From a virus: DNA of 39,368 nt. The notes below the pieces were generated by a model. That model was given only the letters and a program-made list of their open reading frames with translations, had not been told where the DNA came from and did no database searches. Where the stretch lies: positions 1 to 39,368 of IMG/VR virus record IMGVR_UViG_3300003937_000060, one strand, 5' to 3'. Both the position numbers and the translations under genes were made by a program. Position 1 is the stretch's first letter, and every line of letters starts with the position of its first letter. Positions 22,953-30,694 of the stretch are shown one piece after another.

Positions 22953-23999
22953 CTATAAATTTTTAAACGACTCGACCGTCGACAAATACGTGCCTTCTTC
23001 CATCTCAACACCAATAAAACAGCGGTTTAACTTCACACATGCTTTACCTGTTGAGCCGGAACCCATGAAAGCATCAAGCACCACATCACCTTCTCGACTG
23101 CTAGCAGTGAGAATGTGCTCCAGCATTTCCGCTGGCTTTTCGCATGGATGTTTACCCGGGTAATACGCGACAGGGGAAAAGGTCCACACATCGGTATAAG
23201 GAACGTCACTTGTGACACTAAATGGACGACGCAAACTTTCGTACTCCGCTTTTAAATCATCATACTGACGAGTCAGTAATCGATAATCAGCGTTTAATGC
23301 ATCGTATTCTTTTGTTAACTCATCATGAGAACGTTCAAGCTTTCCTGCGTGGTCAGAAAACAACGCTTGCAGCTTTTCGTATTGTTCACGATTCGGAAGT
23401 TTCCATTGGCTATCACTAAACCAGTGCGAACACATCTTAGTGCCAGTGGCTTCATTAATTTCTTTGGCTGAAATGCCAAGTGACTCACGCGCTTGTTTGA
23501 AATAATTAATCAGAGGTTCAAATACCTCTTTCTTTAACTCCGCGCATCGTTTCGCATAGCCAGCGACGCCTTTAGCATGACCTTCAGCACCGTAATGTTC
23601 AGCGAACAACACACGCTCGGTAGCAGGAAAAAACGAACGTAAGTCAGTCTTTCTCATTCTGCGCCATGGCCCGTTTGGCTTAGCCCAAATGATATTGTTC
23701 AGCACATTAAAGCGCTGCCTCATAAGCAATTCAGTGTCAGCAGAAAGCTTGTGGCCACAAAATAAGTAGATACTGCCTGCAGGCTTTAGAACTCGCCAAA
23801 ACTCAAGCATGATCTCGTCTAACCACGCCAAGAACGTTTGAACATCTGGCCACTGATTATCCCAAGCGTTTTTCTTTACTTGGAAATAAGGTGGATCAGT
23901 TAAAACAAGGTCAACGCTGTTATCCGGTAAGGTTTTTAGATAAGAAATGCAGTCTGCATTAAACAGCTGCACTGTATTATTTAAGAAGGAATGATTCAT
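22953..23999 (-). CDS. DNA adenine (N6) methyltransferase, beta-class
   Basis: 348 aa from ATG 23999, which has GGAGG at four-base spacing. The DPPY catalytic motif is at residues 35-38 and the SAM-binding FMGSG at 311-315, so the order DPPY first then FxGxG places it in the beta class. Between them is a target-recognition region containing a helix-turn-helix-like segment (LGISAKEINEATGTKMCSHWF) and an unusual coiled coil (about 217-257). The GGAGG ribosome site is inside a stem-loop ending at the start codon (24000-24030), and a Com-like gene precedes it. It probably protects phage DNA from restriction. No cognate nuclease is seen. Confidence 0.9.
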   Translation of the reverse strand: MNHSFLNNTVQLFNADCISYLKTLPDNSVDLVLTDPPYFQVKKNAWDNQWPDVQTFLAWLDEIMLEFWRVLKPAGSIYLFCGHKLSADTELLMRQRFNVLNNIIWAKPNGPWRRMRKTDLRSFFPATERVLFAEHYGAEGHAKGVAGYAKRCAELKKEVFEPLINYFKQARESLGISAKEINEATGTKMCSHWFSDSQWKLPNREQYEKLQALFSDHAGKLERSHDELTKEYDALNADYRLLTRQYDDLKAEYESLRRPFSVTSDVPYTDVWTFSPVAYYPGKHPCEKPAEMLEHILTASSREGDVVLDAFMGSGSTGKACVKLNRCFIGVEMEEGTYLSTVESFKNL

Positions 24000-24030
24000 A
24001 GTGCCTCCGAGCTTAGGCGCTCTTGGCACT
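24000..24030 (-). promoter_or_regulatory. Stem-loop sequestering the methyltransferase ribosome-binding site
   Basis: On the minus-strand RNA the outer arms AGTGCC (24030-24025) and GGCACT (24005-24000) pair, and inner arms GAGC (24022-24019) and GCTC (24012-24009) close a loop GCCTAA. GGAGG (24008-24004) lies in the internal loop and outer stem, and the ATG begins at the next base. The com stop codon TAA is in the loop. Ribosomes finishing com, or the Com protein itself, could open the site, as established for the mom leader of phage Mu. Confidence 0.65.
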
Positions 24031-24138
24031 CTCCTTAACCAATGTCTTGCACCGTTTGCATTTTATCGAAACAGTGCCAATAAATTCACATAACTTTGCG
24101 CCACACTTATAGCAGCGCAGTTCTATTAGTTTTGTCAT
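24013..24138 (-). CDS. Com-like zinc-finger translational regulator
   Basis: 41 aa. The protein is MTKLIELRCYKCGAKL-CEF...IKCKRCKTLVKE..., with CYKC (Cys9, Cys12) and CKRC (Cys27, Cys30), the two-knuckle zinc finger of the Mu Com family. In Mu, Com binds the mom mRNA and opens its blocked ribosome site. Here the gene sits 13 bases upstream of an adenine methyltransferase whose ribosome site is in a hairpin, the same logic. Its own start is two bases after another hairpin (24141-24161). Family call is firm for the fold; the function is inferred from context. Confidence 0.78.
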   Translation of the reverse strand: MTKLIELRCYKCGAKLCEFIGTVSIKCKRCKTLVKESAKSA

Positions 24139-24140
24139 AT

Positions 24141-24161
24141 AGTCTCACTTTCGTGTAGACT
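24141..24161 (-). promoter_or_regulatory. GNRA-loop hairpin immediately before the com start codon
   Basis: Minus-strand RNA: AGTCT, bulged A, CAC, loop GAAA, GTG, AGACT, then AT and the ATG. The only ribosome-site-like bases (GTGAG) are in the 3' arm, so the hairpin could lower com translation. It is a candidate autoregulatory site. Confidence 0.55.
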
Positions 24162-24334
24162 CCAACCGCTTTGCAAAGCTGGATGGGCCTTGGTTTGGCT
24201 TATGACTAGCGTAATAGGTCAGATGGCTGTGAAGTGTTCCCGCACTTAACAGCCGCCCATTTCATTGCCGTAAATATTCACAGCTTCCTCTCCGTCTACA
24301 ACGGGTCTCTGGTACTCAAGGCTGCTCCAAATAC
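24162..24334 (-). ncRNA. Structured leader RNA upstream of com
   Basis: No gene is seen here. In the minus-strand transcript, 24254-24225 folds as GGCTGT-T-AAGTG / CACTT-C-ACAGCC around loop CGGGAA (11 pairs, one mismatch). At 24179-24168 there is the perfect 12-base palindrome GCTTTGCAAAGC, flanked by near-complementary CCATCC and GGTTGG, which lengthens the stem. Two or three strong hairpins within 170 bases of a leader suggest a regulatory or antitermination-related RNA. Function unknown. Confidence 0.45.
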
Positions 24335-25506: not shown

Positions 25507-26928
25507 TTAAGCGGCTATCGTGTTTGAAATCGGCTGACCAAAATTAGCCTGAACTAGAGCCTTGGCTAAAAGAGGTGGTACCGAGTTCCCCACCTTGGCC
25601 ACTTGCACTTTCTTCGATAATTTTTTACCTGCACTGTTATGGCCAATGATGTAATCATCACGAAAGCTCTGAGCCTTAAACAGCTCATGTGGCTGCAACA
25701 TCCTTAGTCCAATATCAACAACCATGTACGGATTGCCTTTAACAACGACAAGAGCAAATCGGTCTCTAGTCGTAATTGTGTTCAACGGAGCATCCAAAGT
25801 TTGCATATTGTCGGTACCATAATAAGCAATCAAGTACGCTCTAACTTCACCGAAGTGATTTCCTCCTGAAGTAATCGTATGGAGCGGCTCATTCATAGAC
25901 TGCCCGACGTTACCGTTACGAAGCTTTACAATATGACTAGTGACCAAAGCAAAACTTCCACCCTTTGGATAAGCGGTAATGGTTCTCAAAGGTTCATTGA
26001 TTGACATATTACGTTGACTCGAAGAATTCGCACATTCAGTAAGGAATGGAATAATCGTTTCATCTGGTGCGATGTATGGGTCTTCACAATCAATAACGTA
26101 TCTTTGTAGGCCTTTTGCGATTCTGGCCAAAGTCTTTTCTGCTAACGGTTTTTTTCGTCCAAAAATAGACGTGACTGGAAGGCTCCAATCAATACTGTCT
26201 GCGGCGGTAACATAAGGTATTAGGTCTTCACCATGCGTTGGGTCAGGCCAGATATTTTTCCCACCATCTTTACGCGCTATCATGAAGAACCGTTCTCGCG
26301 TTGTTCCCGCACCATAGTCACAAGCGGCTAAGACCTTGTGATCCAATGCATAACCAAGACCTTTAAACAATTTCAATTTTTCTTTAACATCAAATTCAAC
26401 ACCAACAGCTCTACACATTTCTAACCATGATGGGTGTTTTGGCGTTAGCCCGACAGTTAGCACTTTCACAAACGCTTCAAACGTTTCACCTTTCTTTTCC
26501 GGGTCGGGTCTCCACTTACTATTAATCTTTTTCAATGGTCCCCAAGTGGTAAACTCTTCAACGTTCTCCAAATGAAAACCTCTCATATCAGAGAGAAGCG
26601 CCCATCGCACAACTACCCATGCCAAGCCTCGAATTTTTTGATCCATCGGCTTATCACCTTTGGCTTTTGAAAAGTGAGTGCAATCAGGGGAAAACCAAGC
26701 AAAACCAACAGGGCGACCTTGGCAAACTTTCTTAATATCAACATCCCAAACCGATTCACAAAAGACCTTAGTGTCTGGGTGATTTAAGCGATACATATCT
26801 ATCGCGGCAGGATCATGATTAACAGCAATGTCGGCACTACGCCCCAAAGCCATACGGACTCCTTCACCAGCACCGCCTCCGCCAGCAAAGTTATCGACCA
26901 CTAATTCATGAGGGAGAATCTGATACAT
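25507..26928 (-). CDS. DNA cytosine-5 methyltransferase
   Basis: 473 aa from ATG 26928, with GAGG eight bases upstream. C5 motifs in order: I (DNFAGGGGAGEGVRMAL), IV with catalytic Cys83 in PDCTHFS instead of the usual PPCQ, VI (HLENVEEF), VIII (TTRERFFMIARK) and X (VAKVGNSVPPLLAKALV). The recognition region holds three repeated E/A-P-L-x-T-I-T segments (NEPLRTITA, NEPLHTITSGG, DAPLNTITTRD), a feature of phage C5 enzymes of this type. It very probably protects phage DNA from host restriction; recognition sequence unknown. No endonuclease partner is in the window. Confidence 0.92.
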   Translation of the reverse strand: MYQILPHELVVDNFAGGGGAGEGVRMALGRSADIAVNHDPAAIDMYRLNHPDTKVFCESVWDVDIKKVCQGRPVGFAWFSPDCTHFSKAKGDKPMDQKIRGLAWVVVRWALLSDMRGFHLENVEEFTTWGPLKKINSKWRPDPEKKGETFEAFVKVLTVGLTPKHPSWLEMCRAVGVEFDVKEKLKLFKGLGYALDHKVLAACDYGAGTTRERFFMIARKDGGKNIWPDPTHGEDLIPYVTAADSIDWSLPVTSIFGRKKPLAEKTLARIAKGLQRYVIDCEDPYIAPDETIIPFLTECANSSSQRNMSINEPLRTITAYPKGGSFALVTSHIVKLRNGNVGQSMNEPLHTITSGGNHFGEVRAYLIAYYGTDNMQTLDAPLNTITTRDRFALVVVKGNPYMVVDIGLRMLQPHELFKAQSFRDDYIIGHNSAGKKLSKKVQVAKVGNSVPPLLAKALVQANFGQPISNTIAA

Positions 26929-26952
26929 CACGCTATCCTCGCTTCCACTAAA

Positions 26953-29744: not shown

Positions 29745-30064
29745 GCTATCTCCTGACGTAAGTACTGTGTTAAGTACTCTGGCACTGGGTAATGTTCGGC
29801 ATAGTATTTAGCCCAATGTCTATACACATGCTCGTCACCATGACGGTTTAACAAAGCCCAACTAGCAATAGCAGCAGGCTTGTTATCAAAAGGCCCAACT
29901 TGTTGTTTACAGTTAGGGCAAAACAAAATGAATTTCTTAGTGGCTCTGTTATAACCCCATTCAGGCAGCCACGAATTCTCTGGCTTCAGACCGAAGTACA
30001 GATTGCATAGACACGTCGGCATGTCTTCTGGCAGTTTTTCTGCTGCGTCCTCGTTCATGCACAT
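29741..30064 (-). CDS. Lar-like zinc-ribbon protein (possible restriction alleviation)
   Basis: 107 aa from ATG 30064, which has AGGAAGG eight bases upstream (a TTG at 30085 and ATG at 30058 are alternatives). CLCN and FCPNCKQQVGPFDNKPAAIASWALLNR give a C-x-C / C-x-x-C pair followed by the GP...AI-x-x-W-x-x-x-N/R pattern typical of Lar-family zinc ribbons. Lar of Rac prophage eases type I restriction. It overlaps the preceding gene by 104 bases. The zinc fold is likely; the biological role is an inference. Confidence 0.6.
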   Translation of the reverse strand: MCMNEDAAEKLPEDMPTCLCNLYFGLKPENSWLPEWGYNRATKKFILFCPNCKQQVGPFDNKPAAIASWALLNRHGDEHVYRHWAKYYAEHYPVPEYLTQYLRQEIA

Positions 30065-30683
30065 GGTCCAAGCCTTCCTTATCAAATCTGTCTAAAATAT
30101 CGATCAGGCGATTCCAACGTTTAGCCCATGATTTCTCCCACGCTTTCTGCTTCTTCTCAGCCAGCTTCGCTATCTCAACCTGAGTTAATTGCATTTTTCT
30201 GGCGTTCAACTGATCACGCTTCTGCATACAAGCGAGTAGAGCAAGGTGCTTTATCAAGTCCTTAGAATCATCGCTAAGAGTTTTAGGTTCCTCTGCATAG
30301 AAGAGAGCTAACAAGACACTTAACAAAGCTTTTGTAGGACTTTGCGCTCCTTCGCTGTAACAGAAGCGGAGCCAATCACCTATATGCTCCGGAGCACTAT
30401 TCATGTCGTGCACCAATTTCGCATGCTTAAACGCTTGCGCTGGCAGTGGCATAGGGGAATGCTTAAACTGTTTACATGCCAACGTGGTAACAACTTGCGG
30501 CTTAACTTTTGCCAATTCTTCGCCCTTCTCACCAACTTCAATTCGGTAATTACTACGTTGGAACCGTGCATCACTACTTCCATTTTGTTCAAAACCATCC
30601 AACTGACCTCTGGTTCTGGGAATAACTAAAAGTGCAGAGCGAAGCTCTTCTCGTAGTCCTTCCTCGTTATACTTATTACGCAT
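29961..30683 (-). CDS. Uncharacterised early regulator, candidate Q-type antiterminator
   Basis: 240 aa from ATG 30683, with AGGGG eight bases upstream. Helical protein; the second half contains a long Lys/Gln/Trp-rich run (AKLAEKKQKAWEKSWAKRWNRLIDILDRF) and a very basic tail (HERGRSRKTARRHAD), suited to nucleic-acid binding. It is the third gene from the early promoter and the only sizeable unassigned basic protein ahead of the candidate pR'-tR' region. Q function is inferred from context and architecture alone; a replication role is equally possible. Confidence 0.5.
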   Translation of the reverse strand: MRNKYNEEGLREELRSALLVIPRTRGQLDGFEQNGSSDARFQRSNYRIEVGEKGEELAKVKPQVVTTLACKQFKHSPMPLPAQAFKHAKLVHDMNSAPEHIGDWLRFCYSEGAQSPTKALLSVLLALFYAEEPKTLSDDSKDLIKHLALLACMQKRDQLNARKMQLTQVEIAKLAEKKQKAWEKSWAKRWNRLIDILDRFDKEGLDHVHERGRSRKTARRHADVSMQSVLRSEAREFVAA

Positions 30684-30694
30684 GGTCATCCCCT

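Follow-up and report, generated by a model that had tools for sequence, protein, structure and literature searches.

A Com-binding motif shares bases with the predicted start-hiding stem of a phage DNA adenine methyltransferase: a probable translational on-switch

Introduction

The closest described system is the com-mom pair of phage Mu. Com is a small CCCC zinc protein encoded directly upstream of its target, and an RNA hairpin hides the start of the downstream gene, with the Com site on the 5' side of this hairpin. Com binds next to the start-hiding stem-loop (TIS) and activates translation of mom (PMC6483171). Nowacka et al. (2019) selected RNAs with the zinc finger of a Haemophilus Mu-like Com protein, using SELEX and footprinting (PMC6483171). 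The selected product is NGAGNNCC(N)2-3GAGNNCCNN; its core, CC(N)2-3GAG, lies in a hairpin loop closed by a C-G pair (PMC6483171).

Com-like genes directly before a DNA methylase, as in the locus described here, are present in B3 (ORF47-48), phiARM81ld (p55-56), KS5 (gp21-20) and the E. coli phage Chuche, the named pairs belonging to transposable and P2/lambda-like phages. The depositors' annotation places such a gene before an adenine methylase in B3, phiARM81ld and Chuche, and a table in Lynch et al. (2010) lists a Com-like gene before the methylase of KS5 (PMC3091744). The enzyme of phiARM81ld is homologous to the one studied here (55% identity), with the same logic of competing hairpins and an unrelated stem sequence. 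B3, on the other hand, has a Dam-type enzyme and only the core of the motif. In FluMu-type prophages a non-specific adenine methyltransferase (Hin1523, Hia5, Nma1821) stands at the mom position of Mu-like prophages.

The present locus lies on a virus contig of a Vibrio-type phage; the window is the whole stretch of 39,368 nucleotides that was analysed. It resembles Mu in having a small CCCC zinc protein encoded directly upstream of the target and a hairpin with the Com site on the 5' side. In Mu the Com site and the start-hiding stem are side by side, whereas they share bases in the window. The two genes overlap by 80 nt in Mu as annotated and not at all in the window, and the full two-repeat Com motif is found in the window but not in Mu. 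A preliminary description of this DNA had proposed a mom-like switch on a different enzyme. The enzyme is indeed an N6-adenine methyltransferase instead of Mom, but the implied novelty was overstated, since pairs of Com-like and adenine methyltransferase genes are already annotated in several phages. The pairing is thus known, and the new variant is the predicted mutually exclusive switch. A search of the open-licence literature found neither a natural methyltransferase leader described as carrying the Com motif nor a description of the overlapping arrangement. It also gave no publication on the leader RNA described below or on a Com switch ahead of this methyltransferase.

Results

The methyltransferase and its genomic setting

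The gene at 22953–23999 (minus strand) encodes a protein of 348 amino acids. A DPPY motif precedes the SAM-binding FxGxG motif (FMGSGST), and the protein matches PF01555 (E 1.7e-45) and phrog_67. This order of motifs together with PF01555 identifies a beta-class N6-adenine DNA methyltransferase. CcrM and adenine-methyltransferase models also match, below their cut-offs. The enzyme is a member of the N15 gp52 / VHML ORF17 group, and 882 phage records match it. Homology of the protein to Mom was not found; it is a PF01555 N6_N4 methyltransferase. The ATG is located at 23999, the codon at which the alignment of relatives begins, and is preceded by the Shine-Dalgarno (SD) sequence GGAGG at 24004–24008 (minus strand).

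Read 5' to 3' on the minus strand, the region consists of a promoter-like site (24460–24432), a hairpin resembling an intrinsic terminator (24362–24337), the leader (about 24331–24147), com, the methyltransferase, a holin and a lysozyme. The terminator-like site is a prediction, and the number of such sites is not above that in shuffled sequences. A gene for an antitermination protein Q-like product is located upstream of the late region (29961–30689, minus strand; phrog_304, E 8e-43), and a CII-like protein is also encoded in the window. Judged from these similarities, both are consistent with late transcription of the com-methyltransferase region. The region of the homologous gene in phage phiKO2 is annotated as late-transcribed. 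The same phage carries a cytosine-C5 methyltransferase gene (25507–26931, minus strand) upstream of the late region.

The Com-like protein

The com-like gene (24013–24138, minus strand) lies directly upstream of the DNA-modification gene on the same strand, an order that is the same in relatives. Its product has 41 amino acids (MTKLIELRCYKCGAKLCEFIGTVSIKCKRCKTLVKESAKSA) and two CxxC pairs, as the preliminary description had stated. The protein matches PHROG 6417, 'translational regulator' (E 4e-5). The best Pfam family is Zn_ribbon_Com (PF10122; E 8e-4) with a score of 19.2 bits, which is below the curated cut-off of 22.9; this family matches 9 of the 12 members of alignment A1 (E up to 0.01). 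The small CCCC zinc ribbon and the conserved RC..C.KLL / IKCPRCK-like blocks of the Com family (PF10122 / PHROG 6417) are present. In an alignment with the Com proteins of Mu and phiARM81ld, C9, C12, L16, C27, R29, C30 and K31 are invariant. AlphaFold2 predicts a four-stranded ribbon (pLDDT 87). A scan with the 12-member Com alignment gave no result, conserved words being absent, and closer sets were used instead. The scan of genome contigs for com loci yielded two loci only, and little was matched when genomes were searched broadly with Com models.

A stem-loop that hides the methyltransferase start

The leader of the methyltransferase is predicted to fold into a two-stage stem-loop (24000–24030, minus strand) whose 5' arm is the Com motif. 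In the outer stem AGUGCC (24030–24025) pairs with GGCACU (24005–24000), and in the inner stem GAGC (24022–24019) pairs with GCUC (24012–24009). The hexaloop GCCUAA contains the com stop codon UAA (24015–24013). The last base of the stem, 24000, directly precedes the ATG. The two stages, the end of the stem at the ATG and the stop codon in the loop are therefore as originally described. The statement that GGAGG is buried applies to one half only: in the predicted stem covering the ribosome-binding site (24030–24000) the GG at 24005–24004 is paired, but the GGA at 24008–24006 lies in an internal loop.

The folding energy of the 81-nt piece is modestly better than that of shuffled sequences (z -1.90; 10 of 200 as good). 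Energy alone was set aside as proof of the stem, as a z of -1.9 is weak evidence. When the Com motif was kept fixed and the SD segment was shuffled, the observed stem (-17.0 kcal/mol) was far more stable than the mean (-7.8 kcal/mol, p 0.002). The same layout recurs in relatives, and the evidence from comparison is strong.

The Com-binding motif

The window was searched for GAGNNCC(N)2-3GAGNNCC, the published SELEX target of a Com protein (PMC6483171). An exact match, GAGTGCCAAGAGCGCC, is located at 24016–24031 (minus strand; with flanks A-GAGUGCC-AA-GAGCGCC-UA, 24032–24014). It is the only match on both strands of the 39-kb window, where 0.02 are expected, and overlaps the 3' end of com as well as the 5' arm of the start-hiding stem. 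The candidate hairpin of the motif is formed by 24029–24026 and 24020–24017 with the loop CAAGA.

For comparison, com loci were gathered through protein similarity, independently of the motif. Of 110 unique com loci, 67 carry the motif no more than 100 nt past the second CxxC. Its density after com is 7.2 hits per kb, compared with 0.004 per kb elsewhere in the same loci. None of 42 com-less methyltransferase leaders, including those of N15, phiKO2 and VHML, contains it. The full motif is missing from the other 43 of the 110 loci, among them the relative L009, and some of these have the core CC(N)2-3GAG only. In L009 (positions 1912–1960) com and the leader RNA are present, the Com motif is decayed and no clear SD is seen; this phage may have lost the switch.

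In a hairpin GNNC-C(N2-3)GA-GNNC the NN positions of the motif make up pairs two and three, and they covary accordingly. Read as this 4-bp hairpin, the variable positions are paired in 95.6% of cases, with a covariation of 0.478 compared with 0.150 after shuffling and at most 0.169 when the register was slid. The covarying stem spans 40 distinct motifs, and both positions are paired in 40 of 49 distinct motifs (16.6 expected). In L008 and L012 the motif is retained although the com reading frame does not include it. Motif and covariation hold before PF01555 methyltransferases, Dam-like enzymes, Mom-like proteins and some cytosine methyltransferases. Modification genes of several kinds thus seem to have been joined to the Com module.

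Some further loci were noted. In L148, L222, L137 and L176, Com-like genes directly precede genes for cytosine-C5-type methyltransferases, with the full Com motif in L148 and L222. L107 and L158 have a Com-like gene and the motif near genes that bear no methyltransferase signature. Pseudomonas-type com-Dam loci (L228, L229, L245, L254 and others) contain the Com motif twice in succession, at a distance of 22 nt, which may mean that there are two sites for Com.

The position of the com stop codon within the loop suggests another explanation, plain translational coupling. Ribosomes that end com at the UAA would open up the stem and start again at the ATG, 13 nt further on, and the com protein would have another function or none. 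The SD lies between stop and start, and ribosomes translating com will inevitably disturb the stem and could open it independently of Com binding. In relatives, however, the stop varies while the motif stays: it precedes the motif in L008, lies in the loop in the window, and is found past the methyltransferase start in L059 and past the mom start in Mu, with the Com motif kept. Coupling also leaves an exact Com-binding motif with hairpin-covarying bases unexplained and is an improbable account of the locus.

Less probable still is the reading, suggested by some of the names given to Com in databases, that the zinc ribbon regulates transcription by binding DNA, with the hairpin incidental or a weak terminator. 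Zinc ribbons are common among transcription regulators, and the window Com scores weakly with generic zinc-ribbon models as well. The conserved target at a translation start, the RNA covariation and the match to a motif selected as RNA speak against this, and no T-tract follows the stem. That Com represses, or mainly affects mRNA stability, is similarly remote. In favour of this reading, the direction of control is taken from Mu only. Against it, Com activates mom translation in Mu (PMC6483171), and the motif overlaps the arm opposite the SD and not the SD itself, so that binding should free the start.

Two predicted folds that exclude each other

In the predicted folds GAGUGCC, the first repeat, serves twice, as 5' arm of the Com hairpin and as pairing partner of the SD. 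For the Vibrio and Aeromonas relatives, most or nearly all of the predicted ensemble has the SD paired with the Com motif. In the window group practically all pairing of the SD involves the Com motif, also where the stem sequence is entirely different (L059 and L011): the stems are AGUGCC:GGCACU in the window, CUAAGAGU:ACUCUUAG in L011 and CUCCGAGU:ACUCGGAG in phiARM81ld. In 18 such leaders, on average 1.6 of the 16 choices of the NN pair that keep the Com hairpin give a stronger inhibitory stem than the actual pair; in the window none of the 16 does. As the actual pair beats nearly all alternatives in this way, these bases are under two RNA constraints at once. The predicted Com hairpin and the start-covering stem share one set of bases, both in the window and in its Vibrio and Aeromonas relatives, so that only one of the two can form at a time. 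Unlike in the window, the SD in most loci of the Mu-like Dam/Mom group pairs elsewhere than with the Com motif, as it does in Mu.

By prediction, the closed form is favoured over the Com-hairpin state by 7–15 kcal/mol (in the window, -25.2 against -14.4 kcal/mol). Therefore, tight binding of Com or co-transcriptional action would be required. Forcing the Com hairpin gave no consistent rise in predicted SD accessibility.

A structured leader RNA upstream of com

About 185 nt between the terminator and com (24147–24331, minus strand) are conserved, and compensatory changes occur in 19 of 41 predicted pairs. The 60-nt core (24273–24331) comprises P1, an invariant CC:GG step and P3, with the invariant internal loops GAGUA/AAG and GAGA/AGA. 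In 32 sequences 96.3% of the core positions pair, and the covariation is 0.593, compared with 0.185 after shuffling and at most 0.087 when slid. An Rfam search gave no credible match; istR, RNAI and RsmY were rejected, as they mainly matched the terminator hairpin and scored far below the gathering thresholds.

A covariance model finds the leader in Vibrio-type phages with com and in com-less phages with an upstream LexA-box-like sequence. All matches lie before this methyltransferase family, including six of six in the genomes scanned, one of which is an already known Vibrio locus. In the N15-, phiKO2- and VHML-type loci tested with this model the leader was not found. The leader segment GAGTACCNGAGACC resembles the Com motif with a 1-nt spacer; it was rejected as a Com site, being equally conserved in com-less phages.

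In the com-less phages the leader lies directly before the methyltransferase gene, and a hairpin is predicted to sequester SD and AUG. One side of P1, GCCUUGAGUAC, could pair instead with GUAUUCAAGGC, next to this hairpin. A LexA-box-like palindrome, the same leader RNA and the riboswitch-like alternative pairing are found in the com-less relatives L013–L021, L054, L056, L272, L281 and L324–L328. An SD-based start was not assignable in 18 of 32 com-less control leaders, and no general claim on accessibility is made for them. The leader is very probably a real structured RNA, and a regulatory role is likely.

Discussion

The locus is best read as a Com-controlled translational on-switch for the phage DNA adenine methyltransferase, with a probability of roughly 0.8 judged from sequence and predicted folds. 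The mom-like switch proposed in the preliminary description is thus supported. The strongest evidence is the Com SELEX motif and its overlap with the start-hiding stem, both of which were absent from the preliminary description.

Without Com, the 3' end of the com transcript would fold such that the 3' arm takes up part of the SD and closes against the AUG. In this closed form the methyltransferase would be poorly translated. Com would be made from the same late transcript as the methyltransferase and would bind GAGNNCC...GAGNNCC in its small-hairpin form, in which CC-AA-GAG is presented in the loop. This motif doubles as the 5' arm of the stem that hides the start, so that the RNA could not be bound by Com and closed at the same time. 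The Com hairpin would form first during transcription, and Com could capture it before the SD arm emerges. Since this hairpin is complete 11 nt before the SD arm starts to emerge, the direct competition of Com with the stem probably takes place during transcription. Com binding at this RNA and its kinetics are deduced from the motif and the predicted folds, activation is assumed by analogy to Mu, and methylation would be delayed until Com has accumulated. To judge from the arrangement of the locus, Com very probably turns on self-methylation of the phage at a late stage of infection.

A wider reading is more tentative. Two RNA controls might be stacked before this methyltransferase: the Com switch with alternative folds of the same bases, and an upstream structured leader RNA of a class not described before, which has a riboswitch-like layout in com-less phages and perhaps senses the methyltransferase or a methylation metabolite.

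These loci provide a natural family of dozens of sites, amenable to experiment, for an RNA motif of Com that is known from SELEX and from the leader of Mu mom. Competition of Com and the inhibitory stem for the same bases suggests a simple mechanism for a step left unclear by Mu. A further layer of RNA control over this methyltransferase is suggested by the unclassified leader RNA. The findings would imply that Com serves as a general module placed ahead of DNA-modification genes of several kinds, and that many phages delay self-methylation until late in infection.
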